From positions 1 through 50,988 of the forward strand of contig JACDZI010000015.1 in the NCBI GenBank assembly GCA_013426785.1: 50,988 nt of DNA, read 5' to 3'. Numbering within the stretch: position 1 is the first letter of the stretch; each line of letters opens with the position of its first letter. Shown one piece after another: positions 6,843 through 50,837 of this stretch. The notes below the pieces were generated by a model. That model made no database searches, was not told where the DNA came from, and saw only the letters and a list, made by a program, of their open reading frames with translations. The stretch comes from Rhodocyclaceae bacterium. GTDB lineage: Bacteria > Pseudomonadota > Gammaproteobacteria > Burkholderiales > Rhodocyclaceae. The position numbers and the translations under genes are program-made.

Positions 6843-6857
6843 TTCAGGGGAATCATC

Positions 6858-11656: not shown

Positions 11657-13719
<2,063 letters not shown>

Positions 13720-13730
13720 AGGAAAATTCC

Positions 13731-17014: not shown

Positions 17015-17709
17015 GCGAACCGCACGTCGGCATCATCGTGATCGAGGACGAAGCCAATATCCGTCGCTTCATCAAGCTGGCGCTGGAAACCGAGGGCTTC
17101 CAGGTGTTCGAGGCGGACAGCGTGCAGCGCGGACTGATCGAAGCGGCGACCCGCCGTCCCGACCTGGCGATCCTCGATCTCGGCCTGCCCGACCGTGACG
17201 GCAGTGAATTTATCAAGGACCTGCGCAGCTGGTCCGACCTGCCGATCATCGTGCTGTCGGCACGCACCGCCGAGACGGACAAGGTGGCGGCACTCGATGC
17301 CGGCGCCGACGATTACTTGACCAAGCCTTTCGGCGCCGCCGAATTGCTGGCACGGGTGCGTGCGCATCTGCGCCGCCGCCACCGTGGCGAGGGCGGCAGT
17401 TCCCTGGTGGAGTTCGGCCGGCTGAAAGTCGACCTGTCACGGCGCAGCATCGAACGTGAAGGTGTGCCGCTCCACCTGACGCCGATCGAGTACCGGCTGT
17501 TCGCCTACCTGATCAGCAACCCCGATTGCGTACTGACCCATCGGCAACTGCTGAAAAATGTCTGGGGCCCCTCGCATGTCGAGGATACCCATTACGTGCG
17601 GGTCTATATGGGGCAGCTCCGCAAGAAAATCGAGGACGATCCGTCCCGACCGCGACACATCCTCAACGAAGCGGGGGTCGGTTACCGCTTTGTTTTAGGG
17701 GCGCTTTGA
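17011..17709 (+). CDS. kdpE: KdpE, response regulator of the kdp operon
   Basis: KdpE is an OmpR-type regulator that activates kdpABC transcription when phosphorylated by KdpD. The 232-residue product has the receiver aspartate in AILDLGLPDRDG, the conserved lysine in YLTKPFG, and a C-terminal winged helix ending DDPSRPRHILNEAGVGYRF. The gene overlaps kdpD, so pump and regulators form one unit on the plus strand. Confidence 0.95.
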   Translation: MSEPHVGIIVIEDEANIRRFIKLALETEGFQVFEADSVQRGLIEAATRRPDLAILDLGLPDRDGSEFIKDLRSWSDLPIIVLSARTAETDKVAALDAGADDYLTKPFGAAELLARVRAHLRRRHRGEGGSSLVEFGRLKVDLSRRSIEREGVPLHLTPIEYRLFAYLISNPDCVLTHRQLLKNVWGPSHVEDTHYVRVYMGQLRKKIEDDPSRPRHILNEAGVGYRFVLGAL

Positions 17710-17766
17710 CAGCAGGTGCGGCACAAGCGAGAATCGCCCCACCTTCCCAACGCACAGGGCGAGACC

Positions 17767-20400: not shown

Positions 20401-21165
20401 CTAGGAAAAATCGGCCTCGGCCAGGCGTCTCCATGCCTGCCGGCGCACTTCGGGTTCGGGATCTGAGAGCAGCGTCCGCACGGCGGCGAGGGGTGCCCGG
20501 CCAACAGCGGAAAAGCGCACGGTCCAGTCCGGATCGGCCAGCAGTTGCGCGGCATCGTCGGGCAGCGCACGCTCGGCGACGATGCGGCGTACTTCAGGTT
20601 CGGGATCGGCGAGCAGCTTGACCAGAGCAAAGGCGGGCAGACGCTGTGCAACAGTCTTGCGCACTTCGCGTTCCGGATCGCCCACCAGGCGCGTCAAGCG
20701 GCCATGCGACATGCGCCGCGCCACGACGACGCGCACCACGTAGTCGGCATCGCCGGCCATGGAAATCAGATCATCGACCGGCAGACGCTGGGCGACGGCA
20801 ATGCGTACCTCGCGATCACGGTCGCGGCGCAGCCGCAGCAGTTCTTCCGGCGGCAGCCGGGTGGCGACCACGCGCCGCACCACTTCGTCACGATCGGCCA
20901 CCAGCGCACGCACCGCCTCCAGCGGCGCATGGCGGGCGGCAATGGCGCGACGCTCCCAATGAGCGTCAGCAAGATGCAGGGGCGCCGACTCGGGGTTCAG
21001 GCGAAAGAAATTGTCCATCTGACGGCCACTCATGGCCAGCGCACAGACTTCCCGCGGCTGGCAGCGACCGGCGGCCAGCAAACCGGCAGCATGCGGACAA
21101 ATGGAACAAAGGACATCGGGGACCTGAGCCTCGTCCGCCGCAACGAACTCAGTCGTCTTCACCAC
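20401..21165 (-). CDS. 4Fe-4S leucine-rich-variant (LRV) repeat protein
   Basis: The N-terminal region has a cysteine cluster (VLCSICPHA, then GRCQPREVCALAMSGRQMD near residues 20-50) that fits a 4Fe-4S site. About eight alpha-helical repeats of roughly 24 residues follow, each with the pattern DPEPEVRRxVAxRLP. This is the layout of the Azotobacter vinelandii LRV protein, also coded beside nif genes and of unknown role. Start GTG 21165 overlaps the upstream gene by 17 bases. Confidence 0.85.
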   Translation of the reverse strand: MVKTTEFVAADEAQVPDVLCSICPHAAGLLAAGRCQPREVCALAMSGRQMDNFFRLNPESAPLHLADAHWERRAIAARHAPLEAVRALVADRDEVVRRVVATRLPPEELLRLRRDRDREVRIAVAQRLPVDDLISMAGDADYVVRVVVARRMSHGRLTRLVGDPEREVRKTVAQRLPAFALVKLLADPEPEVRRIVAERALPDDAAQLLADPDWTVRFSAVGRAPLAAVRTLLSDPEPEVRRQAWRRLAEADFS

Positions 21166-25426: not shown

Positions 25427-27374
<1,948 letters not shown>

Positions 27375-37950: not shown

Positions 37951-39572
37951 ACGCGCCACTCCAACATCATTCCGACCTCGCAACGGACAGCGGGGGAATG
38001 CGCTACAACGAGAGCCTCGAACTGCACCTGGTGCAGTTCGAGGCCTTGTATGCAGTGAGCCAGGTGCTGTCGCGCTCGCTCGATTACCGCGATACGCTGC
38101 GCGAGGTGCTCTCCATCCTCGACGATGTGGCCGGCCTGACCCACGGCATGGTCAGCGTCATCGACGCCGACAGCGGCGCATTGATGATCGAGGCGGTGCG
38201 CGGCCGCTCCCAGGAAGAATTCGCCCCGGTGCGTTACCAGCCGGGCGAAGGCGTACTCGGCCTGGTACTTGAAAAAAACCGCACCGTGACGCTGGCCAAT
38301 ATCGGCAGTGACGCCCGTTTCCTCAACCGGCTCGGCCTCTACGATCCCGATCTGCCCTTCATCGCGGTGCCAATCAAGGTGGCCGGTAGCCTGCGCGGCG
38401 TGCTGGCAGTGCAGCCGGGCGAACCGATCAGTGGTAAAACCGAGCTTCTGCTGGAAGACCGCGCGCGTTTCGTCGAGATGGTCGCCAACCTGATCGGCAG
38501 CAGCGTCGATCTGGCCCTGCGCGTCGCCGAGGAAAAAAACAGCCTCCTCGAAGAACGGGACCTGCTGCGCCGTACCGTGCGCCACCAGTTCGGCTTTGAC
38601 AACATCGTCGGCCGCTCGACCGCGATGCGCCGCATCTTCGACCAGGTGCGCCTGGTCGCCAAATGGAACACCACCGTGCTGATCCGGGGCGAGACCGGCA
38701 CCGGCAAGGAACTGATCGCCAACGCCATCCACTACAACTCGCCACGCGCCCGCGGCGCCTACATTAAGCTCAACTGCGCCGCCCTGCCGGAAAACCTGCT
38801 CGAATCGGAACTTTTCGGCCATGAAAAGGGCGCCTTCACCGGAGCCGTGGGAGCACGCAAAGGCCGCTTCGAGCAAGCCGACGGCGGCACGTTGTTCCTC
38901 GACGAGATCGGCGATATCTCTCCGGCCTTCCAGGCCAAGCTGCTGCGCGTGTTGCAGGAAGGCGAATTCGAGCGCGTCGGCGGCAGCCGTTCCCTCAAGG
39001 TGGATGTACGGATCATCGCCGCGACGCACCGTGACCTGGAGCGAGCCGTCGAGGCCGGCGAGTTCCGCGAAGACCTGTTCTACCGCCTGTCGGTCATGCC
39101 ACTTTATCTACCGCCGCTACGCGAACGGCTGGAGGACATTCCCGAGATCGCCCGCCATCTGCTGGGGAAGATTGGCAAGATGCAGGAGCGCAAGCTGACC
39201 CTTCAGGATGGCGCGCTACGCCGGCTGGCACACCACAACTGGCCGGGCAACGTGCGCGAACTGGAGAATTGTCTGGAACGCGCCGCGATCCTCGCCGAGG
39301 AAGGGGTGATCGACCCCGACCTGATCCGTTTCGCCAAGTCAAAAGTCGGCGCTGGCGGGACGGCGCCTGCTGCGGCTCCCGCCGCCCCAACCGGCATAAC
39401 ACCTGCAGCGGAAGTGGCGGCGGCCGAGCCGCTGGACGAGCGCGGTCGCGTCATTGCCGCCCTAGAACAGGCCGGCTGGGTGCAGGCACGCGCCGCCCGC
39501 CTGCTGGGCCTGACGCCACGCCAGATCGCCTATCGCATCCAGACCCTCAACATCGAGGTCAAACAGATTTAG
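37947..39572 (+). CDS. nifA: NifA, sigma-54-dependent activator of nif genes
   Basis: The 541-residue product has a GAF domain (about 40-190) and an AAA+ domain with Walker A GETGTGKE near 248 and the sigma-54 contact loop GAFTGA. A C-terminal helix-turn-helix (ARLLGLTPRQIAYRI) follows. The linker before it has no cysteine pair, so this is the NifL-controlled kind rather than the directly oxygen-sensitive kind. The linker begins with KVGAGGTA from a dispersed repeat copy (39342-39364) and continues alanine/proline-rich. Start is GTG 37947, overlapping the nifL stop. Confidence 0.95.
   Translation: MNAPLQHHSDLATDSGGMRYNESLELHLVQFEALYAVSQVLSRSLDYRDTLREVLSILDDVAGLTHGMVSVIDADSGALMIEAVRGRSQEEFAPVRYQPGEGVLGLVLEKNRTVTLANIGSDARFLNRLGLYDPDLPFIAVPIKVAGSLRGVLAVQPGEPISGKTELLLEDRARFVEMVANLIGSSVDLALRVAEEKNSLLEERDLLRRTVRHQFGFDNIVGRSTAMRRIFDQVRLVAKWNTTVLIRGETGTGKELIANAIHYNSPRARGAYIKLNCAALPENLLESELFGHEKGAFTGAVGARKGRFEQADGGTLFLDEIGDISPAFQAKLLRVLQEGEFERVGGSRSLKVDVRIIAATHRDLERAVEAGEFREDLFYRLSVMPLYLPPLRERLEDIPEIARHLLGKIGKMQERKLTLQDGALRRLAHHNWPGNVRELENCLERAAILAEEGVIDPDLIRFAKSKVGAGGTAPAAAPAAPTGITPAAEVAAAEPLDERGRVIAALEQAGWVQARAARLLGLTPRQIAYRIQTLNIEVKQI
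39342..39364 (+). repeat. Dispersed repeat copy in the NifA interdomain linker
   Basis: Exact consensus copy, read in frame as KVGAGGTA at the junction between the AAA+ domain and the DNA-binding domain. Confidence 0.9.
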
Positions 39573-39596
39573 CGCTGCCGGGTATTTCAGAAACGT

Positions 39597-39610
39597 TTGA
39601 TGCAAATCAA
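39597..39610. promoter_or_regulatory. FNR/Anr-type box upstream of the Mrp/complex I-like operon
   Basis: TTGATGCAAATCAA is a perfect TTGAT-N4-ATCAA palindrome, 25 bases after the nifA stop and 77 bases before the first gene of the operon. A TAGAAT at 39643-39648 could act as a -10 element. It suggests activation under low oxygen. Confidence 0.75.
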
Positions 39611-39686
39611 CTGTCTCAGGTTGCATTGGCGCATTGCAGCATTAGAATAAGTTAATTGACTTACACTTATACAGATTCAACGCAGC

Positions 39687-40175
39687 ATGCGCAGTTTCGC
39701 GTTGTTATTTTTGACCCTGTTCCTTTTCTGGGTCTTGCTAAATGGCTCACTGGCCCCGGATGTTCTAGTGGTTGGTGCAGCCGCCGCGCTGATTATTGCC
39801 GCGCTATTCCCCAAAGCTCTATCCGCGCTGACCGACCTGCGCCCGACCCCGCGCGCCCTACTGACGGCCGTGGCCTACGTCTTTTACTTCCTCAAAGAAC
39901 TGATCAAATCCAACCTCGCCGTCGCCGCCATCGTGCTGTCGCCGAACCTGCCGGTGAATCCGGGCATCGTCAAGGTCCGCACGAAACTCAAGAGCCAGAT
40001 GGGACGCATGCTGCTGGCCAACTCGATCACGCTGACGCCCGGCACACTGACGGTCGAACTGGCCGGCGAATGGCTCTACATCCACTGGGTAACCGTGGAT
40101 GCCCCCGATATCGATCATGCCACCGCCAGCATTGTCGCCGGCTTCGAGCGTTATCTCGAGGTGATGTATGGCTGA
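39687..40175 (+). CDS. MrpE/MbhA-like cation antiporter subunit
   Basis: The 162-residue product is an MnhE-family protein: two N-terminal hydrophobic helices, LKELIKSNLAVAAIVL, then the soluble domain with RTKLKSQMGRMLLANSITLTPGTLTVEL. It is the first gene of a 13-gene operon whose order (E, F, G, D, E/B, C, D) matches the membrane part of archaeal MBH/MBX complexes rather than a free-standing Mrp antiporter, which would start with a large MrpA. It overlaps the next gene by eight bases. Confidence 0.88.
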   Translation: MRSFALLFLTLFLFWVLLNGSLAPDVLVVGAAAALIIAALFPKALSALTDLRPTPRALLTAVAYVFYFLKELIKSNLAVAAIVLSPNLPVNPGIVKVRTKLKSQMGRMLLANSITLTPGTLTVELAGEWLYIHWVTVDAPDIDHATASIVAGFERYLEVMYG

Positions 40176-40428
40176 ACTGCTGATTAACCTCGCCGCCATG
40201 ATCACCGGGGTGGCCTTCCTGCTCGCACTGTGGCGCTTCTTCGCCGGTCCGGCGGATGCCGACCGTGTAGTGGCCTTCGACGTGCTGACCATCATCGGCA
40301 TCACCGGCATCGTCTTCGTCGCCTTCCTCGAAGGGCGCGGCATCTACCTCGATGTGGCACTGGTCTATGCGCTGCTGTCCTTCCTCGGCGTGATCGCCGT
40401 CGCCCGCTATCTGGAGCGTGGCCTGTGA
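40168..40428 (+). CDS. MrpF/MbhB-like subunit
   Basis: An 86-residue protein with three membrane helices and the family core GPADADRVVAFDVL, followed by an acidic break (AFLEGRGIYLDVALVYALLSFLG). In Mrp and MBH complexes this small subunit helps form the ion path. Its TGA overlaps the ATG of the next gene. Confidence 0.88.
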   Translation: MAELLINLAAMITGVAFLLALWRFFAGPADADRVVAFDVLTIIGITGIVFVAFLEGRGIYLDVALVYALLSFLGVIAVARYLERGL

Positions 40429-40748
40429 TGGACGTTTTGGGTGGTCTTCTGGTCGTCGCCGGTGCGGCCTTCCTGTTGCTCGGCGGGCTTGGGCTGGTAC
40501 GGATGCCGGACGTGTTCAACCGCATCCAGGCCGGCACCAAGGCCACCACGCTCGGCACCCTGCTGTCGCTGGCCGGCTTCGCCGGCCTGCAACCGGACTG
40601 GACGCTCAAGCTGTTCCTGATCGGCCTGTTCGTGCTGTTTACCAACCCGCTGTCCTCGCAGGTGCTGGCGCGTGCCGCGCACCGTGCCGGAGCCGAGGAA
40701 TCGCCGCTGACCACGGTTGACGTGCTCAACGACGAGCAGGGTAAATAG
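40428..40748 (+). CDS. MrpG/MbhC-like subunit
   Basis: A 106-residue protein with three membrane helices and the MnhG core LLLGGLGLVRMPDVFNRIQAGTKATTLGT. ATG 40428 overlaps the preceding stop (TGATG). The open frame extends upstream only as overlap with the mrpF-like gene. Confidence 0.88.
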   Translation: MDVLGGLLVVAGAAFLLLGGLGLVRMPDVFNRIQAGTKATTLGTLLSLAGFAGLQPDWTLKLFLIGLFVLFTNPLSSQVLARAAHRAGAEESPLTTVDVLNDEQGK

Positions 40749-40750
40749 CC

Positions 40751-41017
40751 ATGAGCCACCTGCTGCCCTGGCTAACCATCCTGCTGTGCATTGCCATGCT
40801 GGTGGCCGCGATCATCGCCATCCGCGGCCTCAGCTCGCCGATCGCCATCCTCGCCGCCGGACTGGTCAGCCTGCTGGCCTCGGTCCTGTTCCTGATCCTC
40901 GCTTCGCCCGATGTCGCCATGACCGAAGCGGCCATCGGCAGCGGCCTCACCACCTTCCTGTTCTTTTTTATCCTCGGCCGGGTGAGAAGCAGCGAAAACG
41001 ACGGGGGCCCGGCATGA
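40751..41017 (+). CDS. MbhD-like subunit (DUF4040, MrpA C-terminal type)
   Basis: An 88-residue protein with three membrane helices and the segment ASPDVAMTEAAIGSGLTTFLFF, which is the signature of MbhD and of the matching part of MrpA. Having it as a separate small gene, without the NuoL-like part of MrpA, is the MBH/MBX arrangement. It overlaps the next gene (ATGA). Confidence 0.85.
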   Translation: MSHLLPWLTILLCIAMLVAAIIAIRGLSSPIAILAAGLVSLLASVLFLILASPDVAMTEAAIGSGLTTFLFFFILGRVRSSENDGGPA

Positions 41018-41706
41018 TCAAGCGCGCCGTCGCCCTGGTTCTGCTCCTCATGCTCGGCGGCATCTTCGCCACGCTGATGCTTGGCTACACGCCCGACAGC
41101 GAACTGAACCTCACCGCCCGCTACTACGCCGAGCGCACCGCTGCCGACCTGGGCGCGGCCAACATCGTCACGGCCATCGTCGTTACCTACCGCGGCCTCG
41201 ACACGCTGGGCGAAGTGACCGTTCTATTCCTTTCCGCCTCGATTGTCGGGCTGGTGCTGGCAAGCAATCGCCGACCGGCCCTGCGGGTACGCACGCCGGT
41301 AGGCGAACTGCTGACCACCGGCGCGCGTTTCCTGGTGCCGCTGATCCTGCTGCTGGGCGTCTATGTCTTCGTCAATGGTCACCTCACCCCCGGTGGCGGT
41401 TTCCAGGGCGGAGCGATCATCGCCTCCGGCGTGCTGTTGCTGCTGCTGGCCGATCCGCTGAGACATTTCAGCCATCACGTCATCGCCACGGTCGAGTCGC
41501 TGGCCGGCCTCTTCTACGTGGCCATCGGCCTCGCCGGCCTGTTCCTGGCCGGCGGCTTCCTCGATAACCGGCTGTGGCCCATCGGCACGCTCGGCGAGCT
41601 GTTTTCCGCCGGCGCGATTCCGTTGATCTACTCGCTGATCGGCCTGAAGGTCGGTGCCGAGTTCTCCTCGATGCTCGCCAGCCTCTCGGAAACAGAGGAA
41701 CTGTGA
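41014..41706 (+). CDS. Fused MbhE-MrpB-like subunit
   Basis: The 230-residue product joins an MbhE-like N-terminal part (one helix, then LTARYYAERTAADLGAANIVTAIVVTYRGLDTLGEVTVLF) to an MnhB domain (LLGVYVFVNGHLTPGGGFQGGAI). In Pyrococcus MBH these are two proteins, MbhE and MbhF. Start ATG 41014 overlaps the preceding stop, and the end overlaps the mrpC-like gene. Confidence 0.87.
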   Translation: MIKRAVALVLLLMLGGIFATLMLGYTPDSELNLTARYYAERTAADLGAANIVTAIVVTYRGLDTLGEVTVLFLSASIVGLVLASNRRPALRVRTPVGELLTTGARFLVPLILLLGVYVFVNGHLTPGGGFQGGAIIASGVLLLLLADPLRHFSHHVIATVESLAGLFYVAIGLAGLFLAGGFLDNRLWPIGTLGELFSAGAIPLIYSLIGLKVGAEFSSMLASLSETEEL

Positions 41707-42062
41707 TGGCCTACATTGCCATGGCCACCGGCTTCCTGCTGGTCCTGATCGGCTTTTACGGCGCGCTGACGCAGCGCAATCTGCTGCGCATGATCGTCGC
41801 CTTCACCATTGCCGACAGCGGCGTCAACATCGTCATCGTCGCCATCGGTTACATGCGCGGCCGCACCGCGCCGATCCTCGATGCCACCGTCAGCGCGGCC
41901 GAGGCGGTGCAGCGCATCATCGATCCGGTGCCGCAGGCGCTGGTGCTCACCGCCATCGTCATCGGCGTCGGTATCACCGCGCTGATGCTGGCCTATGCCT
42001 ACCGGCTCTACGAGCGCAAGCACACGCTCGACATCGCCAAACTGACGGATTTGCAGGGGTGA
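41706..42062 (+). CDS. MrpC/MbhG (NuoK-like) subunit
   Basis: A 118-residue, three-helix protein of the NuoK/MrpC family, with TQRNLLRMIVAFTIADSGVNIVI and DPVPQALVLTAIVIGVGITALMLA. It would be one of the ion-path subunits. It overlaps both neighbours. Confidence 0.88.
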   Translation: MAYIAMATGFLLVLIGFYGALTQRNLLRMIVAFTIADSGVNIVIVAIGYMRGRTAPILDATVSAAEAVQRIIDPVPQALVLTAIVIGVGITALMLAYAYRLYERKHTLDIAKLTDLQG

Positions 42063-45000
42063 ACGCCCTCACCATCTTCGCCATCGGGCTCGGCACCGCC
42101 TTCCTGCTCGGCCTGCTGGGCGAACGCCAGAAGAGCCTCGGCTACATGCTGACGCTGGCAGCGCTGACCTTCATGAGCGCCGTATCCGCCAGCTGGCTGG
42201 TGGTGTTCGCCGCCACCGGGGCGGACAGCTTCGACATCTTCACGGCCGGCACCGCGCCACCCTTCGCCATCAACCTGCGCATGGGTCTGATTGAGGCGGC
42301 GTTAACGCTGCTGATCAACCTGACCGGCCTGTTCGCGGCCATGCACATGGGCGACGCCCTGCTGCGACTGGGCCAGCGAGCCATGGCAGTGCTGATCATC
42401 GCCATCATGGCCCTGTGCGGCATCGTGTTGACCCGCGACATCTTCAACCTGTTCGTCTTCTTCGAACTGATCGTCATCGCCACCGCCGGACTGGTGCTGC
42501 TCTCCGACGATGACAGCGCCCTCGCGGCCGGCTTCAAGTACCTGATCGTCTCGCAATTCATCTCCGCCCTGCTGCTGGTCGGCATCATCTTCGCCTACCA
42601 CGCCACCGGCACCCTCAACATCGACGGGATGGCCGAGGCGGCTGCGGCCATCGACCCGAGCGTGTCCGGCGCTTTCGCCATCGCCTTCTTCCTGATGTTC
42701 ATCGCCGTCGTCGCCGAGCTCAAGCCCTTCCCGGCCAATGGCTGGGCGCTCGACATGTACGAAGCCGCCCATCCCGGTTTCTCGGCGGTGTTCTCCGCCG
42801 CGTCGGGCACGGCCGCGCTCTATGCAGTCGACAAGCTGCTGCAGATCGGCGGCACGGACTGGTTGCCGGTCGCCACCGGCATCGGTATCGTCACCTTCGT
42901 CGGTGCCAACCTGCTGGCCCTGCCGCAGACCAACGACCGGCGCCTGCTCGGTTACTCCTCCATCGCCCAGACCGGCCTGATCCTCACCGTGCTCGGCCAG
43001 CAGGACATTTTCGGCGACGATTATTTCTTCATCGCCGGCGGCCTGCTGTTTGCCCATGCACTGGCCAAGGCCGGCCTCTACTGGTTGTCGGCTCTGGTCG
43101 CCGGCCGCACGCTGCCCGACTGGGCCGCCCTGCAGTCGCGGCCGCTACTGGTGTTCGCCTTCATCTCCTGCGTGGCCATGCTGTCTGGCCTGCCGCCTTT
43201 CCCCAGCTTCTACGCCAAGTGGGAACTGGCGCATCTCCTCGTCGCCGAAGGCCGCAGCGGCCTGCTGGCGCTGATCCTGTTCGGCGCACTGGTCGAAGCT
43301 GGCTACCTGTTCCGCTGGTTCGGCTACCTGATCAAGCGGGCGACACCGGCCGAGTCGATCGCCTGCCCGGCGCACCAGCTGCTGCCGATTGCCGCTGCCG
43401 TGCTGGGTGGCTGGGCGCTCGGTTTCGTCTGGGGCGAACTCTCCTCCAGCTACTTCGGCCGCACCAACCTGCTGCTGACCCTGCCGCTGTTCTTCGCGCT
43501 GACTTTCCTGCTGCTCGATTGGTTGCCGGCCTGGGTCAAGAACACGCTGGCCATCGGTGGCATGGTGGCCTTCTTCAGCCTGACCTATGCCGAATACGAT
43601 CCGCTGCGCCTGATCTTCGCGGTGATCTTCCTGATCGGCGGCGCCGTCACCCTGCTGGCGAGCTACCACGCCCATGGTCGCCGTATCGGCTTTTATCCGG
43701 CCGCGATGCTGATGTATGCCGGCATGATCATGCTGATCCGTGCCAGCGACAGCTTCGGCTTCTTCGCCGCCTGGGAACTGCTGACGGTCGGCTCCTACTT
43801 CCTGATCCTGCGTGGCAAGCATTCCGAGCCGCATGCGCTGTCCTACATCGTCTTCTCGCTGGGCGGCGCCTTCCTGATCCTCGCCGGCTTCGCACTGGCT
43901 GCCAGTGCCGTCCCGCCAGCGCCGACTTTTGAGATTGCGCAACTGGCCGACCTGGTGCAACCGGTTGCCCCGTGGGTGTTCCTGCTGCTCGCACTCGGCT
44001 TCATGACCAAGACGGCGGCCATCGGCGTGCATATCTGGCTACCCGGCGCCCATGCCGAAGCCGAAACCGACGTTTCACCGATGGTGTCGGGCATCCTGCT
44101 TAAAGCGGGTTTGTATGGCCTGTTCGTGCTGCTGATGAACATGGGCAAACAATCCCTGTATGGCGTCGAACTCACCTACGTCATGCTGTGGATCGGCGCC
44201 ATCACCGCCCTGCTCGGCAACCTGATGGCGATCTTCCAGGAAGACGCCAAGCGCCTGCTGGCCTACTCCTCTATCGGCCAGATGGGCTACGCGCTGTTCG
44301 GCTTGGCGCTGATGAACCACCTCGGCTGGCTGATGGCGCTGATGTTCGTCATCAACCACTACATCTACAAGTCGATGCTGTTCCTGTCGGTCGGTGGCGT
44401 GGCCAAGCGTACCGGCACGCGCGAGATGTTCAAGATGGGCGGCCTGATCACGCTAATGCCGCTGAGTTTCATCGCCACGCTGATCGGCATCATCGCCGTC
44501 TCGGGCGTACCGCCGCTATCCGGCTTCGGCGGCCGCTGGATCTTCTACAACGCCATCCTGACGGCCGACGCACGCCTGCCGATGGTGCTGATCTTCCTGT
44601 CCGGCCCGATCGCCTTCCTGTATCTGTTCCGCCTGATCCACACCATCTTCCTCGGCCAGTTGAAGGACGAGCATCGCCGCCTCAAGGAAGCGCCGTTCTG
44701 GATCATCCTGCCGCAGATGATCTATGTCGCACTATTGATGGTGGTCGCCGTGGTGCCGGGCATGGTGCTGCGCCATGTCGATGCCTACATCTCGCAATTC
44801 TTCCCCGATGGCGCACTGAACTGGGAAGGCAGCACCATCACCAGCCAGTTCGGTTACTGGAACCCGGTCGCCATCATGATCATCGTCGGCGTTATCTTCA
44901 TGCTGCTGTTCGGCTGGCTGCTGTTTGTCAATCGGCGCGCCCAGAAGGTCAAGCAGTTCAACTTCGTCTTTTCGGCCGAACGGCCGTTCCGCCCCGAGAC

Positions 45001-45214
45001 CACCCACTTCGCCTGGAACTTCTTCGCGCCCTACCGCAAGGCGATGGGCTTTCTGGTCCAGCCCTTCGTCACGCGCTTCTGGGCCGCGGTGACCGACCTG
45101 CTGCACACGGCCGCCGACATCACGCGCCGGTTGTACAACGGCAACGGCCAGACCTACGCCTTCCACTTCCTGCTGTTCGTGGTGGCCGTGTTCACTTTCA
45201 GGATGGGAATGTAG
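42059..45214 (+). CDS. Double antiporter subunit: two NuoM/MrpD-like modules in one protein
   Basis: The 1,051-residue product joins two complete proton/cation-translocating modules. In module 1 (about 1-500) the conserved glutamate is E136 (FFELIVIATAGL) and the later lysine is in HALAKAGLYWL. The central lysine is not seen: the segment reads FSAASGTAALYAV near 247. Module 2 (about 520-1050) has E573 (AAWELLTVGSY), K682 (GILLKAGLYGLFV) and NHYIYKSMLFLS. Separate H and H' subunits are known in archaeal MBX/MBS. Start GTG 42059 overlaps the mrpC-like stop. A dispersed repeat copy lies in a module 2 loop. Confidence 0.88.
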   Translation: MNALTIFAIGLGTAFLLGLLGERQKSLGYMLTLAALTFMSAVSASWLVVFAATGADSFDIFTAGTAPPFAINLRMGLIEAALTLLINLTGLFAAMHMGDALLRLGQRAMAVLIIAIMALCGIVLTRDIFNLFVFFELIVIATAGLVLLSDDDSALAAGFKYLIVSQFISALLLVGIIFAYHATGTLNIDGMAEAAAAIDPSVSGAFAIAFFLMFIAVVAELKPFPANGWALDMYEAAHPGFSAVFSAASGTAALYAVDKLLQIGGTDWLPVATGIGIVTFVGANLLALPQTNDRRLLGYSSIAQTGLILTVLGQQDIFGDDYFFIAGGLLFAHALAKAGLYWLSALVAGRTLPDWAALQSRPLLVFAFISCVAMLSGLPPFPSFYAKWELAHLLVAEGRSGLLALILFGALVEAGYLFRWFGYLIKRATPAESIACPAHQLLPIAAAVLGGWALGFVWGELSSSYFGRTNLLLTLPLFFALTFLLLDWLPAWVKNTLAIGGMVAFFSLTYAEYDPLRLIFAVIFLIGGAVTLLASYHAHGRRIGFYPAAMLMYAGMIMLIRASDSFGFFAAWELLTVGSYFLILRGKHSEPHALSYIVFSLGGAFLILAGFALAASAVPPAPTFEIAQLADLVQPVAPWVFLLLALGFMTKTAAIGVHIWLPGAHAEAETDVSPMVSGILLKAGLYGLFVLLMNMGKQSLYGVELTYVMLWIGAITALLGNLMAIFQEDAKRLLAYSSIGQMGYALFGLALMNHLGWLMALMFVINHYIYKSMLFLSVGGVAKRTGTREMFKMGGLITLMPLSFIATLIGIIAVSGVPPLSGFGGRWIFYNAILTADARLPMVLIFLSGPIAFLYLFRLIHTIFLGQLKDEHRRLKEAPFWIILPQMIYVALLMVVAVVPGMVLRHVDAYISQFFPDGALNWEGSTITSQFGYWNPVAIMIIVGVIFMLLFGWLLFVNRRAQKVKQFNFVFSAERPFRPETTHFAWNFFAPYRKAMGFLVQPFVTRFWAAVTDLLHTAADITRRLYNGNGQTYAFHFLLFVVAVFTFRMGM
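43907..43929 (-). repeat. Dispersed repeat copy inside the double antiporter gene
   Basis: Exact consensus on the minus strand, read by the gene as AVPPAPTF (about residues 617-624), in a loop between membrane helices of module 2. Confidence 0.9.
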
Positions 45215-46120
45215 ATGGACTTCGACTGGATGAAGATCCCCTATGCCTTCCTGACGGTGTTCATCGTTGTCAACTACGGCTTCCTGATGACGGCGCTGAT
45301 CCAGAAGATCGGCGCGCGCGTCGGCCGCCGCTATGGCATCCCGATCTGGCAGAACTACCTCGACATGATCAAGAACTACGGCCTAAGGAGTTCGATCACG
45401 CATGGCGCGATGTTCTACCTCGGCCCGGTGTTCCGCTTGTCGGGCGGCGTCGGCCTGCTGCTGTTCGTGCCGTCGATCTATGGCTCTTACATGTTCTCCA
45501 ACCTGTCGTTTGCCGGCGACCTGATCCTCGCGCTCTACTTCGTGTTCTTCGGCACGCTGGGCATGGCGCTGGGCGCGGCGGAAAGCGGCCATCCGCACGC
45601 CGCCATCGGCATTACGCGCGGCCTGTCGCAGGTGAGCATGGCCGAACTGCCGTTCGGCCTGGCGGTGTTCTCGGTGGCGCTGCAATACCAGACGCTGTCG
45701 GTCACCGACATCGTCGCCGCGCAGCAGGGCGGCATGCTGACTTGGACGCTGTTCACCAACCCGCTGGCGGTGTCTGCGGCGATGCTGTCCTTCCTCGGCT
45801 CGATGATGCGCCCGCCCTTCGACGTGGTGATCGCCCCGCAGGAAATCCCCATCGGCCCGCCCACCGAGTACCACTCCTCGTATCTTGCGCTGATGCAGAC
45901 CAACCGGGTGATCTTCCCGGTGGCTAAGATCGTCATCTACATGAACCTGTTCTTCGGCGGCGCGACCAGCTGGCCGGAGTTCTTTCTCAAGGTGTTCCTG
46001 ATCTATATGTGGTCGGCCTTCGTTGGCGTGGTGTTCCCGCGCTTCCGCGTCGAGCAGTCGATCCGCTGGTTCCTCGTCTGGGCGGTACCGCTCGGCGTGC
46101 TTTCGATCATGGTGGTGTAA
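45215..46120 (+). CDS. NuoH/MbhM-like membrane subunit
   Basis: The 301-residue product has about eight membrane helices and the family segments GAAESGHPHAAIGITRGLSQVSMAELPFGLAV and RPPFDVVIAPQEIPIGPPTEY, where acidic residues of the ion/quinone path lie. In complex I and group 4 hydrogenases this subunit links the peripheral arm to the antiporter arm. It starts directly at the end of the double antiporter gene. Confidence 0.88.
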   Translation: MDFDWMKIPYAFLTVFIVVNYGFLMTALIQKIGARVGRRYGIPIWQNYLDMIKNYGLRSSITHGAMFYLGPVFRLSGGVGLLLFVPSIYGSYMFSNLSFAGDLILALYFVFFGTLGMALGAAESGHPHAAIGITRGLSQVSMAELPFGLAVFSVALQYQTLSVTDIVAAQQGGMLTWTLFTNPLAVSAAMLSFLGSMMRPPFDVVIAPQEIPIGPPTEYHSSYLALMQTNRVIFPVAKIVIYMNLFFGGATSWPEFFLKVFLIYMWSAFVGVVFPRFRVEQSIRWFLVWAVPLGVLSIMVV

Positions 46121-46124
46121 GAGA

Positions 46125-46772
46125 ATGACGATGAAACCGGAACTGATGAAGCGCATGGTGAAAGGCCCGGACGGCGTCGAGTTCGAGGTCGAGCCGCTGC
46201 GCGACTACTTCTGCGAGGTGCCGCCGACGGTAATGCCGGCCGCCTACATCAAGATCGTCGAAGACCTGTTCAACTGGGCGCGGGCCGAATCGATCTGGAT
46301 TCTCGGCTTCGGCACCGGCTGCGGCGCCATCGAGATGCGCCCGCTGATGACGCCGCGCTTCGATGCCTATCGCTACGGCGTGCAGTGGCGGCCGACGCCG
46401 CGCCAGGCCAACCTGTTCATCATCTCCGGCTACCTGTCGACCAAAACCTTGAAACGGGCGATTCGCGCCTACGAGCAGATGCAGAACCCGAAGTATGTGA
46501 TCGGCCTCGGCTCCTGCACCATCAACGGCGGCATGTACTGGGATTCGTACAACACCATCAAGCGGCTCGACGACTACCTGCCGGTCGACCTCTACATCGC
46601 CGGCTGCATGCCGCGTCCCGAAGCGCTGCTGGCCGGCTTCATGGACCTCAAGAAGATCATCCGCGCCGGCAAGGGCGAAGGCGCCAACCAGTATGCGGAG
46701 AACTTCGCCTGGTACAAGGAAAATCAGAAACGCGTGATCCACGACTGGGACATGCCGGATTACAACTGGTGA
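46125..46772 (+). CDS. NuoB/MbhJ-like subunit with an altered cluster motif
   Basis: The 215-residue product belongs to the NuoB/hydrogenase small-subunit family and should hold the Fe-S cluster nearest the active site. Family members have four cysteine ligands. Here I see C66 in GFGTGCGAIEM, C131 in GLGSCTINGG and C161 in AGCMPRPEAL. The residue after C66, a cysteine in NuoB (CCxxE) and in hydrogenases (CxxCxxE), is glycine. ATG 46125 is used; another ATG follows two codons later. It lies between the NuoH- and NuoC-like genes. Confidence 0.87.
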   Translation: MTMKPELMKRMVKGPDGVEFEVEPLRDYFCEVPPTVMPAAYIKIVEDLFNWARAESIWILGFGTGCGAIEMRPLMTPRFDAYRYGVQWRPTPRQANLFIISGYLSTKTLKRAIRAYEQMQNPKYVIGLGSCTINGGMYWDSYNTIKRLDDYLPVDLYIAGCMPRPEALLAGFMDLKKIIRAGKGEGANQYAENFAWYKENQKRVIHDWDMPDYNW

Positions 46773-46785
46773 TGAGCAACTGGTA

Positions 46786-47346
46786 ATGACAATGCGTGAA
46801 CTGTATGACCGCACAAAGGCCCTCTTCCCGCTTGGCGAGCTGATCGAGCAGCGCTCAGGTGGCAATAATGATCTGGTCTTCGTCACCGTGCCGGCCGCGC
46901 ATCTGCGCGCGACCATCCTGCACCTGCGCGACAAGGAAGGCTTCAGCCACCTCGTGCTGCTCACCGCCGTCGATTGGCTGGAGGAAGGACAGTTTCAGCT
47001 CACCTACCTGCTCAACAACCGCCAGCAGGCCTATGACCTCGGCCTGCGCGTGATGATTTCGCGTGACAGCGCAACGATGGAAAGCATCCACGACGTCTGG
47101 CCGACGGCGGCGACCTACCAGCGCGAACTGCGCGAGATGTTCGGCATCGATTTCCCCGGCAGCCCGCGCATCGAGGAAGAATTCATCCTCGAAGGCTGGA
47201 ACGATATCCCGCCCTACCGGCGCGATTTCGATACGCTGAAATACGCCCAGGAGAAATTCAGCGAACGTCCCGGCCGCAAAACGCACGATCCGGAAACGCA
47301 CATGCGACAGCAACTGTATCCCGACATGAGTCCGACCGGGAAATGA
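46786..47346 (+). CDS. NuoC/MbhK-like subunit
   Basis: The 186-residue product is a 30-kDa-type subunit, with HLVLLTAVDWLEEGQFQLTYLL and the signature YQRELREMFGIDFPGSP. It normally docks the NuoD-like subunit. The C-terminus ends in a polar tail. Its stop overlaps the NuoD-like start (ATGA). Confidence 0.88.
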   Translation: MTMRELYDRTKALFPLGELIEQRSGGNNDLVFVTVPAAHLRATILHLRDKEGFSHLVLLTAVDWLEEGQFQLTYLLNNRQQAYDLGLRVMISRDSATMESIHDVWPTAATYQRELREMFGIDFPGSPRIEEEFILEGWNDIPPYRRDFDTLKYAQEKFSERPGRKTHDPETHMRQQLYPDMSPTGK

Positions 47347-48530
47347 CGATGTACCAACCCTTCCCACCCGACCGCAGCCAGTATCCGGCCAAAAAGGCCG
47401 ACGGCACGCTCGACATCGACCTGACGTCGGGCAAGTACCTCAAGCTCTGGCAAGGCCCGAACCACCCCGGCATCACCGGCAACATGTCGGTCGAGCTGAC
47501 CGTCTGCGGCGACGAGGTGGTCGAAGGCAAGACGCACGTCGGCTACCTGCACCGCGGCTTCGAGAAACTCATGGAGCGCCGCACCTTCATCCAGTGCTTC
47601 CCCATCGTCTGCCGCATCTGCGTGCCCGAACCGGACTTCAACGAATACTGCTACGCGGCGGCGGTCGAAGAACTCGCCGGCATCCAGGCCCCCGAACGGG
47701 CCCACTGGATCCGCACCCTGATCCTCGAAATGGGGCGCATCAACAGCTACATGATGTACCTCGGCGGCCAGGCCGGTTCGCTCGGCCAGGGCGTGATCGG
47801 CCAATGGACCACCTACGTGCGCGACCTGATGCTCGACCGCTTCGAGGAACTGACCGGCGCGCGGATTTATCACATGTTCATCCTGCCCGGCGGCGTGCGC
47901 GACGGCCTTCCCGACGGCTTCGCCGGGCGCATGGAGGAAACCCTGCGCGAAATCGAAAGCATCCTGAAGGATGTCTATGACGTGATGTTCTGCAACGCGG
48001 TGTTCAAGGCGCGCACGGTCGGCATGGGCGTCATCGACCCCGCCTGGCTGGACGAATACGGCGTCACCGGCCCCAACGCCCGCGCCGCCGGCGTGGCGAA
48101 GGACATGCGCAAGGACCACCCCTACCTCGTCTATCCCGAGCTCGCTTTCGAACCAGTCACGGGCAAGGATTCCGACATCTACACGCGCGCCGACGTGCGC
48201 CGCCGCGACGTGCTGGTATCGGTGGACCTGATCCGTCAGATCATGGCGAAGATGCCCATGGACGGCCCGCTGATGTGTGCGGTACCCAACGTGCTGCACT
48301 GGAAGATTCCGCGCGGCGAAACCTACATCCGTGGCGAATGCTCGCGCGGCGAATACGGCTACTACCTCGTCACCGACGGCTCCGGCTACCCGCGCCGCGT
48401 CAATGTGCGCGGTCCGAGCTACACGCACGCCATGGCGCTGCTGGAGCGCATGATCGTCAATATCAGCATTTCGGACGTCGCCGCGCTGATGGTGTCGCTG
48501 CACACCTACCCCCCCGAAATAGAAAGATGA
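47343..48530 (+). CDS. NuoD/MbhL-like subunit without a full NiFe site
   Basis: The 395-residue product is the catalytic-type 49-kDa/hydrogenase large-subunit homologue, with GPNHPGITGNMSVELTVCGD and VGYLHRGFEKLMERR. In NiFe hydrogenases four cysteines in two CxxC motifs bind the metals. The N-terminal place reads IVCRICVPEP (C90, C93), so the first pair survives but its following histidine is gone. The C-terminal place reads ISDVAALMVSLHTYPPE, without cysteine. It is therefore unlikely to be a hydrogenase. It resembles Ehr or MBX/MBS-type relatives. Start ATG 47343 or 47349. Confidence 0.87.
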   Translation: MTMYQPFPPDRSQYPAKKADGTLDIDLTSGKYLKLWQGPNHPGITGNMSVELTVCGDEVVEGKTHVGYLHRGFEKLMERRTFIQCFPIVCRICVPEPDFNEYCYAAAVEELAGIQAPERAHWIRTLILEMGRINSYMMYLGGQAGSLGQGVIGQWTTYVRDLMLDRFEELTGARIYHMFILPGGVRDGLPDGFAGRMEETLREIESILKDVYDVMFCNAVFKARTVGMGVIDPAWLDEYGVTGPNARAAGVAKDMRKDHPYLVYPELAFEPVTGKDSDIYTRADVRRRDVLVSVDLIRQIMAKMPMDGPLMCAVPNVLHWKIPRGETYIRGECSRGEYGYYLVTDGSGYPRRVNVRGPSYTHAMALLERMIVNISISDVAALMVSLHTYPPEIER

Positions 48531-48537
48531 GCGAGCG

Positions 48538-50337
48538 ATGAGCATCAAGGACGTTCTCTCTCCCTTCACCGCCTGGAAGAACCTGTTCCGCGATCCAGTC
48601 AGCATCCGCGACCCGCTCAACCGCGCGGCCGCGCCGCGCTACCGCGGCTTCCACCAGAACGATGTCGCGCAGTGCATCGGCTGCGGCACCTGCGAGGATA
48701 TCTGCCAGAACGGCGCCATCGACATGGTGCCGGTTGAGGGCATCGCCACCAAGCAGGGCGATTCCGGCCTCCGCCCGCGCATCGACTACGGTCGCTGTTG
48801 CTGGTGCGCGCTGTGCGTCGATGTCTGCATGACGCATTCGCTGTCCATGTCCAACGTCTACACCTGGGTGGATGGCGACCCGGATGCCTTCCGCTTCACA
48901 CCCGGTGTCGACAAGAAACCCTGGGACGACGCGGCGCTCGGCTATCGCCGGCCGGAAGAACACCGGCTGACCGGCCGCGTGCGCGCGCCCATGGGCGAAA
49001 TCGAACCCGCGGAGCGCATCGACTCCTTCGCAGAAATCGTGGACGGCTACGATGTGGCAGAGGCGCAGTTCGAAGCCGACCGCTGCGTCAGCTGCGGCCT
49101 GTGCGTCGCCACCTGCCCGACGCACATGGCGATCCCGCAGTACATCAAGGCGATCCGTGACGGCGACTACGATCTCGGCGTCAGCCTTCTCTACGAATCT
49201 AATCCGTTCTCCGGCATCTGCGGGCGCGTATGCACCCACAAGTGCGAGACCACCTGCGCTACACGCCACGAGGGTGAACCGATTGCGATCAGGTGGCTCA
49301 AGCGCCACATCATGGACCAGGTCTCGGTCGACCAAATCAAGCGTGTACTTGTAAAACCCACCGCGCCGACCGGCAGGAAGGTGGCGATCGTCGGCGCCGG
49401 CCCGGCCGGCCTGACCGCCGCCTTCGACCTGGCAAAACAGGGCCATCAGGTCACCGTCTATGAAGCGCTCGACCAGCCGGGCGGCATGACGCGCTGGGGT
49501 ATTCCCGAATACCGCCTGCCCTACGACATCATCGACCAGGATGTGGACATCATCCGCTCGGTCGGGGTCGACATCCGCTGCAATGCGCGCATCGGCACCG
49601 ACATCACACTCGACCAGCTCAAGGCCGACCACGACGCCGTGCTGCTGGGCCTCGGCCTGCAACTCGGCCGTGCCACGCGCATTCCCGGCAGCGAGCATGC
49701 GGATGTGAGGAAAGCGGTCGACCTGCTGCGGCTGGCCACGGCCGGCGAACCAATTGCTGGCGGCACGCCGCGTGAGGTAGTAGTCATCGGCGGTGGCAAC
49801 GTAGCGATGGACATCGCCCGCACGCTGGCGAGATTGCAGCAGCAGGCCTACGGCGAGGTCAAGGTCATCCTGACGGCGCTGGAAGACCGCGCCCACTTCC
49901 TGGCCGATCCTGAAGAAATCAAGGAGGCCGGCGAGGAAGGTGTGATCATCCTCGACGCGCGGGGCCCGCAGCAGGTCGTCGTCGAGAACGGTAGCGTGAC
50001 CGGCCTGAAGACCTGGCGCGTCAAGGCCATCTTCGATGAGCAGGGCCGCTTCGCCCCGAGCTACGACGAGGCCGACGCGCAGTTCCACCCCGGCAGCATG
50101 GTGGTCGAGGCCATTGGCCAGATGACCGACGCTTCCCTGCTGGGCGATGCCATGACCGAGCAGCTCGCCTGGCAGCGCGGGCGCCTGCAGGTCGATGTCG
50201 GCGGGCGCACCAGCGCAAGCTGGTTATGGGCGGCCGGCGACATGGTGCGCGGCCCGGATGTCGTGTCGGCCGTCGCCGATGGCCATCGCGTTGCGGCAAG
50301 CATTCATGCTGCGCTTCAAGAAGGGATCGCTAAATGA
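48538..50337 (+). CDS. NuoI-like ferredoxin fused to a GltD/NfnB-type NAD(P)H oxidoreductase
   Basis: The 599-residue product has three parts. A NuoI-like part has two 4Fe-4S motifs (C46, C49, C52, C56 and C87, C90, C93, C97). A GltD-type N-terminal Fe-S domain has C183, C186, C189, C193 plus CGRVCTHKCETTC. A flavin domain has the FAD motif GAGPAG near 286 and the NAD(P)H motif GGGNVAMD near 418. GltD and NfnB use this last unit to move electrons between NADPH and Fe-S centres. Here it would replace the NuoEFG input module. The gene starts 7 bases after the NuoD-like stop. Confidence 0.9.
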   Translation: MSIKDVLSPFTAWKNLFRDPVSIRDPLNRAAAPRYRGFHQNDVAQCIGCGTCEDICQNGAIDMVPVEGIATKQGDSGLRPRIDYGRCCWCALCVDVCMTHSLSMSNVYTWVDGDPDAFRFTPGVDKKPWDDAALGYRRPEEHRLTGRVRAPMGEIEPAERIDSFAEIVDGYDVAEAQFEADRCVSCGLCVATCPTHMAIPQYIKAIRDGDYDLGVSLLYESNPFSGICGRVCTHKCETTCATRHEGEPIAIRWLKRHIMDQVSVDQIKRVLVKPTAPTGRKVAIVGAGPAGLTAAFDLAKQGHQVTVYEALDQPGGMTRWGIPEYRLPYDIIDQDVDIIRSVGVDIRCNARIGTDITLDQLKADHDAVLLGLGLQLGRATRIPGSEHADVRKAVDLLRLATAGEPIAGGTPREVVVIGGGNVAMDIARTLARLQQQAYGEVKVILTALEDRAHFLADPEEIKEAGEEGVIILDARGPQQVVVENGSVTGLKTWRVKAIFDEQGRFAPSYDEADAQFHPGSMVVEAIGQMTDASLLGDAMTEQLAWQRGRLQVDVGGRTSASWLWAAGDMVRGPDVVSAVADGHRVAASIHAALQEGIAK

Positions 50338-50837
50338 CTGAAGGAACCCATGGTATCGAGCGGCTGCGCGACAAGACTTCGCTCAAGGAAGTCCTCGAGG
50401 TCGCCACTCATTTCGAGGAAAGTGCGCGCGACTTCTACACCGTGCTGATCCCGAAGGTGAGCAAGCGCATCCGCTATCTGGTCGAGGAACTGGCGACCGA
50501 AGAGCAGGCGCACTTCGACCTGTTCAGCGCCTTGGCGCAGCGTGCCGACATCGCCGCGCAGGTCAGGGAAGAAATTCAGCGGACGGCCAGCGACAGCAGG
50601 TTTTCCGATTGCATCCACCTGCCCGACCTCGGCGACCAGCCCGACGACCAGGCGGTGCTGCAATACGCGATGGGCCGTGAACATGCGGCGATGACGCACT
50701 ACGGAGAATTGGCCAATACCGCACCGGCCGGACCGATCCGCGATCTGTTTGCCTACCTGGCGAGCGAAGAAACCCGGCACAAACTGGAACTGGAAAAGCT
50801 CTACTACGAGACCATCCACCGCGGCGGCGGGGTGTAA
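50334..50837 (+). CDS. Ferritin-like diiron protein (rubrerythrin type, no rubredoxin domain)
   Basis: The 167-residue four-helix protein has the diiron ligand pattern: FEESARDFY near residue 27, ATEEQAHFDLF near 55, GREHAAMTHY near 117 and SEETRHKLELE near 146. No rubredoxin cysteines are seen. Such proteins often reduce peroxide or remove oxygen. The ATG overlaps the stop of the NuoI-GltD fusion (ATGA), so it belongs to the same operon and could protect an oxygen-sensitive complex. Confidence 0.85.
   Translation: MTEGTHGIERLRDKTSLKEVLEVATHFEESARDFYTVLIPKVSKRIRYLVEELATEEQAHFDLFSALAQRADIAAQVREEIQRTASDSRFSDCIHLPDLGDQPDDQAVLQYAMGREHAAMTHYGELANTAPAGPIRDLFAYLASEETRHKLELEKLYYETIHRGGGV

Follow-up and report, generated by a model that had tools for sequence, protein, structure and literature searches.

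A recurrent thirteen-gene operon encoding an MBS/MBX-type complex with a fused NuoI-GltD arm, and its predicted function as an NAD(H):sulfane-sulfur oxidoreductase

The operon and its recurrence

The window, which is the whole 50,988-nucleotide stretch of Rhodocyclaceae DNA analysed here, contains thirteen plus-strand open reading frames spanning 39687-50837 that, with the starts chosen, overlap or are separated by no more than 13 bases (Table 1). Gene parts were assigned with Pfam and NCBIfam profiles, and the coupling of the reading frames together with the matched subunit families confirms that the thirteen-gene operon of the preliminary description is real. Its layout is that of MBS/MBX complexes, with an Mrp-type arm, two antiporters and homologues of NuoH, B, C, D and I; no NuoEFG NADH module is found within the operon, a GltD-like arm standing in its stead. 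Both antiporter subunits occupy a single 1051-aa reading frame, which the preliminary description had left unnamed. Immediately upstream lie nifL and nifA, the opposite strand carries rnfA, rnfB, rnfC, rnfG and another Rnf-Nqr subunit, and nifK, nifD and nifH are found further out, past the rnf genes.

Table 1. Features of the operon and its upstream region in the window
Feature	Position	Strand	Length (aa)	Profile or remark
FNR/Anr-type box, perfect, TTGATGCAAATCAA	39597..39610	+		centre 83.5 bp before first start codon
MnhE/MrpE-like subunit	39687..40175	+	162	PF01899
MrpF-like subunit	40168..40428	+	86	PF04066
MrpG-like subunit	40425..40748	+	107	PF03334
MbhD-like subunit	40751..41017	+	88	PF13244
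MbhE+MnhB subunit	41014..41706	+	230	PF20501 + PF04039
MnhC/NuoK-like subunit	41703..42062	+	119	PF00420
Double antiporter, fused (equivalents of MBS H and H')	42059..45214	+	1051	PF00361 twice
NuoH/MbsM-like subunit	45215..46120	+	301	PF00146
NuoB/MbsJ-like subunit	46131..46772	+	213	best solved match 6U8Y_J
NuoC-like subunit	46786..47346	+	186	PF00329
NuoD/MbsL-like subunit	47343..48530	+	395	best solved match 6U8Y_L
NuoI-GltD/NfnL fusion	48538..50337	+	599	FAD and nucleotide sites
Rubrerythrin/ferritin-like di-iron protein	50334..50837	+	167	PF02915; two ExxH motifs

Of 181 relatives the 80 best-scoring were retained, and these show the same gene order and fusions across Alpha-, Beta- and Gammaproteobacteria and Magnetococcales. 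Contig ends truncate many of the 80 loci; in all of them, whichever of the 12 core genes are present stand in unbroken order, so the arrangement is more than a product of chance. Its unusual place beside nifA and rnf, by contrast, holds in the window and is not seen in nearly all relatives: among the 80 loci, L068 alone has NifD/NifK-type genes beside the operon and no locus has Rnf genes there, flanks being short or missing in many, while in genome G026 the operon shares its contig with nif and rnf at a distance of some 85-110 kb. Clustering of neighbours, from crude ORF calls on flanks of at least 1 kb upstream in 50 loci and at least 3 kb downstream in 52, returned no cluster present in more than 5 of the 80. 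A plasmid search with the fusion gave 235 records, 14 of them covering at least 80% of the query; the matches listed were of the GltD/AegA type.

Residue counts were made on rows with at least 85% coverage (of the 80 loci, 71 for NuoB, 80 for NuoD, 71 for the fusion, 57 for the double antiporter and 62 for the rubrerythrin-like protein), to which the window sequence was added. The double antiporter is one reading frame in all 57 sufficiently covered relatives, and the residues E136, K222, K337 and E573, K651, H665, K771, which we take to be functional, are invariant across the 58 rows, one X excepted. In the rubrerythrin-like protein, E57, H60, E146 and H149 are invariant (63/63).

NuoB, NuoD and the NuoI-GltD fusion

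Among solved structures searched with phmmer, the Pyrococcus MBS (6U8Y) gave the best matches to both NuoB (219 bits) and NuoD (309 bits), followed by NDH-1/complex I (135 and 207 bits) and MBH (95 and 140 bits), which supports the MBX kinship proposed beforehand; the proposed anatomy is likewise supported. NuoB aligns with 6U8Y_J without gaps at an offset of 36, placing C64, C129 and C159 at the MBS ligand positions in 72/72 rows, while position 61, corresponding to MbsJ C25, is Gly in 68 rows, including the window, and Ala in 4. In the passages of PMC7684303 used here, P. furiosus MBS reduces polysulfide, its catalytic cluster is ligated by C28, C93 and C123 with C25 too distant, and C25, C85 and C385 are dispensable for activity. 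Since NuoB has no equivalent of C25, exactly three ligands remain, as in the site-differentiated [4Fe-4S] cluster of MBS, and by sequence we predict a proximal cluster with three cysteine ligands. NuoB further carries an extra cysteine of its own, C28, invariant in 72/72.

In NuoD, C90 and C93, the N-terminal cysteine pair of the NiFe site, are retained in 81/81 rows and the C-terminal pair is lost. The expectation that a hydrogenase is unlikely is thereby borne out, and a group 4 [NiFe] hydrogenase was set aside, the four NiFe cysteines being reduced to the N-terminal two. C93 aligns with MbsL C85, and the position of MbsL C385 is Y389 in 81/81; because that cysteine is lost, and because C85 and C385 are dispensable in MBS, we claim kinship and a similar site rather than identity with MBS. 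NuoD C90/C93 or NuoB C28 could also complete the NuoB cluster and so close the site, which speaks against the sulfur function proposed below. The positions of Nqo4 His38 and Tyr87, which we take to be the quinone His/Tyr of complex I, are T45 and V94 in 81/81, and in NuoB the tandem cysteine pair of complex I has Gly65 in its second place in 72/72; on these residues, a complex I-like quinone reductase was set aside.

The fusion contains two NuoI-type and two NfnL-type [4Fe-4S] cysteine sets, and all 16 expected Fe-S cysteines are invariant (72/72). The top structural match of its GltD-type part is 5JCA_L, and an AlphaFold model is confident for the GltD half and of low confidence for the NuoI half. 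YRR is replaced in the alignment, with Glu449 in 71/72. According to the passages of PMC7596348 that concern it, NfnB uses this motif to bind the phosphate of NADP, and the motif also characterises DsrL-2, the NADP(H)-dependent type; its absence here makes NAD(H) the likelier cofactor, so that of the NAD(P)H module previously proposed the fusion to NuoI stands, whereas the site looks to be of NAD(H) type. NfnL/NfnB and DsrL share the GltD-type fold and two [4Fe-4S] sets, and differ in that the present fusion lacks YRR and is joined to the NuoI of a membrane pump, with no NfnS-like gene in the operon. The same NuoI-GltD architecture is shared by the 'putative oxidoreductase' family NF010590/PRK13984, to which no function is assigned and whose full-length match scores 850.7 bits in the window and 879.5 in G026, both below the cut-off of 946.

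Genomic associations and upstream sites

Co-occurrence was scored in 52 operon-bearing genomes, many of them incomplete MAGs, consisting of 49 from the 80 loci, chosen by eye for longer contigs, together with G000, G001 and G026 (the last two also belonging to the 80). The sulfur gene dsrA is present in 47 of the 52 at E<=1e-60, 45 being above the cut-off. Within three clades the operon and dsrA are associated with a stratified odds ratio of about 20 (p 6.5e-6, ignoring shared descent), the operon being called by NuoD alone or, in Rhodocyclaceae, by the NuoI-GltD fusion. At E<=1e-50, dsrA occurs in 5/7 Rhodoferax genomes with the operon against 22/82 without, and in the order of Magnetospirillum UT-4 in 9/9 against 79/239; four of these nine bearers were previously known, two (G199 and G203) are lower-scoring, and the five new bearers alone give p 0.0045. 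Rhodocyclaceae contribute 3/3 against 21/28 (p 1.0 for this contrast alone), and dsrA is near universal in the window's own genus (18/19). The gene is missing from 5/52 bearers and 2/7 Rhodoferax, one genome being counted in both, and most dsrA genomes are without the operon. No sulfur-gene neighbour of the operon was identified among neighbours that lack systematic annotation. Because its relatives occur in many sulfur-oxidising bacteria, the function of the operon is probably connected with sulfur rather than nitrogen.

The preliminary description had linked the complex to nitrogenase and Rnf. Of the 52 bearers, 24 have nifD above the family cut-off and 28 at E<=1e-60, including all three from Rhodocyclaceae; within the three clades the odds ratio is 2.2 (stratified p 0.19, ignoring shared descent, with nifD thresholds of 1e-60, 1e-100 and 1e-120 in different contrasts), and Rhodoferax shows 1/7 with the operon against 20/82 without. 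Nor does rnfC discriminate, occurring in 45/52 bearers and in 27/28 relatives without the operon. A link to nitrogenase as a general role is not supported, although one may exist in some lineages.

Upstream motifs were sought in 52 of the 80 loci. The FNR/Anr-type box before the operon (Table 1), scored against what we take to be the consensus, is the sole perfect match in the window, and imperfect boxes occur at about -90 in L038 (one mismatch) and about -88 in L058 (two mismatches). Boxes with at most one mismatch were found in 6/52 upstream regions, where 0.49 were expected from mononucleotide shuffles and 0.85 from a Markov model, against 6/208 coding stretches (p 0.017); at two mismatches, 18/52 is little above the 57/208 of coding DNA. 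We therefore rejected FNR control as a family-wide trait, and as the signal across loci is weak, weight was put on the perfect box in the window and on the similar positions in close relatives. The nifH gene of the window has a perfect -24/-12 site, whereas no sigma-54-like site within two mismatches precedes the operon in 39573-39686. A -24/-12-like site with one mismatch is found in 3/52 relatives (L046, L075 and L100; 0.63 expected, 0/208 coding stretches), the genomes of which all have nif hits, that of L100 only partial; at two mismatches the 52 regions show no excess (8 against 8.28 expected). A search of 39400-40200 for a sigma-70-like promoter gave none. The operon may be transcribed by read-through from nifLA.

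Candidate function and its alternatives

Of described systems, P. furiosus MBS (6U8Y; passages of PMC7684303) shares the layout of the complex, the top sequence scores and the three-ligand NuoB cluster pattern. It differs in that the antiporters are here fused, a GltD-like arm is joined to NuoI, a rubrerythrin-like gene is added, the C25 and C385 positions are lost while both N-terminal NuoD cysteines are kept, and the operon belongs to Pseudomonadota. Thermotoga maritima MBX is likewise a bacterial MBS homologue, and its mbxA is induced by S0 or thiosulfate (PMC9431562); in the passages used of that source and of PMC2246101 it is a predicted ferredoxin user, described as transferred from Thermococcales. 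The literature consulted gives no gene-level account of Thermotoga Mbx gene content. A 'putative Mrp-Mbx complex' has already been named for the Riftia symbiont, a sulfur oxidiser (PMC11636981), and, matched by description, is probably of the same family. It is known from co-expression data only, with its direction given as unknown, and the relevant passages describe no NAD(H) arm, site or distribution. Its co-expression neighbours overlap those of the rTCA genes, while rDsr and Sox group with the CBB cycle (PMC11636981). This rTCA-linked co-expression counts against a sulfane oxidoreductase.

From the parts and fusions observed, the ligand residues, the match to MBS and the co-occurrence with dsrA, we infer the substrate, cofactor and coupling of the complex: with about even confidence, we predict that this member of the complex I superfamily, from its MBS/MBX branch, is an NAD(H):sulfane-sulfur oxidoreductase that moves ions. 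Electron exchange would take place between NAD(H) and a sulfane-sulfur substrate, which may be polysulfide, persulfide or a small disulfide, and would be coupled to ion movement via two antiporter-type pumps. Electrons would pass between NAD(H), FAD, the two [4Fe-4S] clusters of the GltD-like arm and the two of NuoI, and thence to the site-differentiated NuoB [4Fe-4S] cluster at the NuoD/NuoH chamber, where the sulfur substrate would react. NADH and polysulfide have potentials of about -320 mV and -260 mV respectively, a gap too small to pump several ions, and we therefore lean towards the backward direction, with reduced sulfur as electron donor, NAD+ as acceptor and the ion gradient as driving force; in anoxic cells the complex might instead reduce stored sulfur.

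How lithotrophic and phototrophic sulfur oxidisers obtain low-potential reductant is an old question, to which the usual answer is reverse flow through complex I. This conserved, widespread and apparently uncharacterised complex, combining an MBS-type site with an NAD(H)-type arm, would be a direct alternative. MBS-like chemistry, familiar from hyperthermophiles, would then also occur in common Pseudomonadota and in symbionts among them. A more specific and only tentative possibility is that it performs quinone-independent reverse electron transport, the gradient driving electrons from sulfide or persulfide directly onto NAD+ via the MBS-type Fe-S site; if so, rDsr sulfur oxidisers and purple bacteria would obtain NADH at little energetic expense.

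An equally tentative possibility is that, when oxygen is absent, NADH is used to reduce polysulfide or stored sulfur, the complex then serving as an electron sink that pumps little or not at all. This possibility overlaps the preferred oxidoreductase function, from which it differs in direction. The reductive action of MBS (in the passages of PMC7684303), the FNR box of the window with similar boxes in some Beta relatives, and the co-expression neighbours that both Mrp-Mbx and sulfur-globule protein genes have in common with rTCA genes in the Riftia symbiont (passages of PMC11636981) speak for it, whereas the driving force is small for two antiporter pumps on the potentials above and the FNR signal is weak across loci. 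That the same complex acts on another thiol or disulfide, with NuoD C90/C93 and NuoB C28 as a relay, seems unlikely, although all three cysteines are invariant here and MBS C25, C85 and C385 are, by contrast, dispensable.

We consider it improbable that the operon encodes the ion-gradient-driven NAD(P)H:ferredoxin oxidoreductase, supplying nitrogenase, that was first proposed. Its place after nifLA and opposite rnf, the nif neighbours in L068 and the shared contig in G026, the nifD hits in bearers, the one-mismatch -24/-12-like sites, and the earlier assignment of P. furiosus Mbx as a ferredoxin:NADP+ oxidoreductase, restated in a passage of PMC6349859, all favour this proposal. Against it, 24/52 bearers have no nifD hit, association within clades is far stronger for dsrA than for nifD, the window operon has an FNR box and no sigma-54-like site, and NADH-to-ferredoxin transfer inside the arm would presumably bypass the pump-coupled NuoB/NuoD site. 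An alternative NADH:quinone oxidoreductase, as a complex I variant, is very doubtful: the complex has NuoH, B, C, D and I subunits and a nucleotide arm, and NuoB (204 over 116; 156 over 143) and NuoD (NF004739; 381 over 360) pass NCBIfam cut-offs, but the quinone His/Tyr and the second tandem cysteine are replaced in every row.

Operon architecture and distribution

The operon consists of 13 ORFs that overlap or are spaced by no more than 13 bases, and so is the tightly coupled set that a preliminary description had taken it to be. Family searches assign its products, in order, to MnhE, MrpF, MrpG, MbhD, MbhE+MnhB, a NuoK-like subunit, a 1051-aa protein with two antiporter domains, NuoH, NuoB, NuoC, NuoD, a 599-aa NuoI+GltD fusion and a rubrerythrin-like protein. 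Mrp-type subunits thus precede Nuo-like subunits, as had also been claimed, in the subunit order of MBX/MBS; the operon differs from MBX/MBS in that both antiporters are fused and NuoI is joined to GltD. Since bchCXYZ, pufLMC, kdp, nifHDK, rnf, nifL and nifA lie in the window as well, the host appears to be phototrophic and may be able to fix nitrogen.

Coordinates of features in the window
Feature	Position	Strand	Remarks
Photosynthesis gene cluster	311-8866		bchC, bchX, bchY, bchZ, then pufL, pufM, pufC; nifK ~13 kb off
kdpA, kdpB, kdpC, kdpD	9941-17709		with response regulator
Glu/Leu/Phe/Val dehydrogenase gene	17716-19047		next after the kdp/response regulator group
Leucine-rich-variant repeat protein	20401-21165		LRV Fe-S domain; near nifK
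-24/-12 sigma-54 site	26417-26431		perfect; upstream of nifH
Operon	39687-50837	+	13 ORFs
NuoB	46131-46772	+
Rubrerythrin-like gene	50334-50837	+

Two of 60 relatives (G001 and G026) carry the operon, in the same order as the window and with 71-96% identity per gene. A genome scan by NuoD alignment returned 181 relatives, and the best 80 of these (NuoD 79-89% identical) were used; all are Pseudomonadota where the lineage is named, and they include Chromatiaceae, Thiothrix, Sedimenticola, Gallionellaceae, Rhodoferax, Dechloromonas, Magnetovibrio, Magnetospirillum, Magnetococcales, Rhodobium and others. Gene order, which the preliminary description had proposed seeking in other genomes, recurs: the 12 core genes are unbroken in 80/80 loci, counting genes present. 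All 12 are found in 52 of the 80 loci, 49 of which also have the rubrerythrin-like gene; this gene stands first, not last, in three Chromatiaceae loci (L082, L087 and L094) and keeps its ExxH motifs in 63/63 rows. Where coverage suffices, both fusions are single ORFs (antiporter fusion, 57/57 loci; NuoI-GltD, 71/71). Three loci from Betaproteobacteria, L038, L058 and L074, fall together with the window (99/89) in a NuoD+NuoB tree that has no outgroups. No widely conserved neighbour gene was found among the 80 loci. Magnetospirillum sp. UT-4 (L068), alone among them, has NifD/NifK-type genes beside the operon, just downstream (15415-18018 of that locus; 32% and 27% identity), which are probably nifEN.

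Co-occurrence with dsrA, nifD and rnfC

Among 52 operon-bearing genomes, dsrA was matched at E<=1e-60 in 47 (45 over cut-off), nifD at the same threshold in 28 (24 over cut-off, the remainder NifE-like or fragments) and rnfC in 45 (43 over cut-off). In the genus Rhodoferax (89 genomes, 7 bearers), dsrA occurs in 5/7 genomes with the operon versus 22/82 without (p 0.025), and nifD in 1/7 versus 20/82 (p 1). Within the order of Magnetospirillum UT-4 (248 genomes, 9 bearers), the corresponding figures are 9/9 versus 79/239 for dsrA (p 6.8e-5) and 5/9 versus 70/239 for nifD (p 0.13), and for Rhodocyclaceae 3/3 versus 21/28 (p 1) and 3/3 versus 17/34 (p 0.23). Stratified over the three clades, with shared descent uncorrected and thresholds varying by clade, the odds ratio is ~20 for dsrA (p 6.5e-6) and 2.2 for nifD (p 0.19). 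The preliminary description had proposed scoring co-occurrence with nifHDK and rnf; rnfC is also present in 27/28 relatives without the operon and hence does not discriminate.

Active site, nucleotide arm and proposed mechanism

The alignment of window NuoB with MbsJ from the MBS structure 6U8Y needs no gaps (offset 36). According to PMC7684303, just three cysteines, C28, C93 and C123, bind the MBS proximal cluster, while C25 lies too far off to do so; the same paper reports that this cluster itself reduces polysulfide. The three equivalents in operon NuoB, C64, C129 and C159, are present in 72/72 sequences, whereas the fourth cysteine, merely out of reach in MBS, is absent altogether (Gly in 68 and Ala in 4 of the 72). 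NuoB's own C28, at no ligand position, is likewise invariant (72/72) and is possibly a relay or fourth ligand; either it or a NuoD cysteine could complete the cluster. NuoD retains C90 and C93 in 81/81 sequences, Tyr389 stands at the position of MbsL C385, and T45 and V94 occupy those of Nqo4 His38 and Tyr87, residues with quinone roles. This combination argues against both hydrogenase chemistry, already thought unlikely, and quinone chemistry, although operon NuoB and NuoD do pass the NCBI NuoB and NuoD cut-offs.

From ~residue 150 on, the fusion protein matches NfnL/NfnB, GltD and DPD in sequence, and in the predicted model, the NuoI half of which is unreliable, the GltD-like part matches the fold of 5JCA_L (TM 0.87 by target length). 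All 16 expected cluster cysteines are invariant. The YRR motif, which according to PMC7596348 binds the phosphate of NADP in NfnB and is characteristic of the NADP(H)-dependent DsrL-2 type, is replaced in the window protein, and Glu449 is found in 71/72 sequences; judged from this single motif, NAD(H) is a likelier partner than NADP(H). The nucleotide module described earlier is indeed fused to NuoI.

On the established view, relatives of complex I couple their pumping to reactions that take place in the NuoB/NuoD/NuoH chamber. The nucleotide arm on NuoI would make NAD(H) one substrate and a molecule in this chamber the other. Two observations, the ligand pattern of MBS type and the association with dsrA, suggest sulfane sulfur as that molecule. 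On the potentials involved, gradient-driven NAD+ reduction would be favoured over strong pumping from NADH, cellular concentrations being decisive.

Related systems in the literature are P. furiosus MBS (PMC7684303) and T. maritima MBX (PMC9431562), together with a single mention of a putative Mrp-Mbx complex, its direction given as unknown, in a Riftia symbiont (PMC11636981). The passages covered, from open-licence texts and with much Ehr literature outside their scope, contain no account of an NAD(H)-armed form or a dsrA link. The six-gene Hyf-like cluster of Ca. Symbiobacter and the Ehr complexes of Margulisbacteria (PMC6349859) appear to be something else; the latter source repeats the older view of Mbx as a ferredoxin:NADP+ oxidoreductase.

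Upstream control

The window has a single perfect copy of TTGAT-N4-ATCAA, 83.5 bp ahead of the operon. FNR-like sites occur at ~-88 and -90 in L058 and L038 respectively (1-2 mismatches), and four Rhodoferax loci carry them at ~-139 to -157 (0-2 mismatches); as a family-wide trait, FNR control is weakly indicated. Read-through from nifLA into the operon is possible, since the one terminator-like site near its start sits within the first codons and is no better than shuffles. The motif scan, for which the nifH site served as positive control, found no -24/-12 site in the nifA-operon gap with up to two mismatches allowed. One-mismatch -24/-12-like sites lie upstream of the operon in 3/52 relatives (L046, L075 and L100), whose genomes have nifD matches (for L100 only fragments and a NifE-range match); these sites speak against a purely anaerobic picture, and sigma-54 may control the operon in some lineages.
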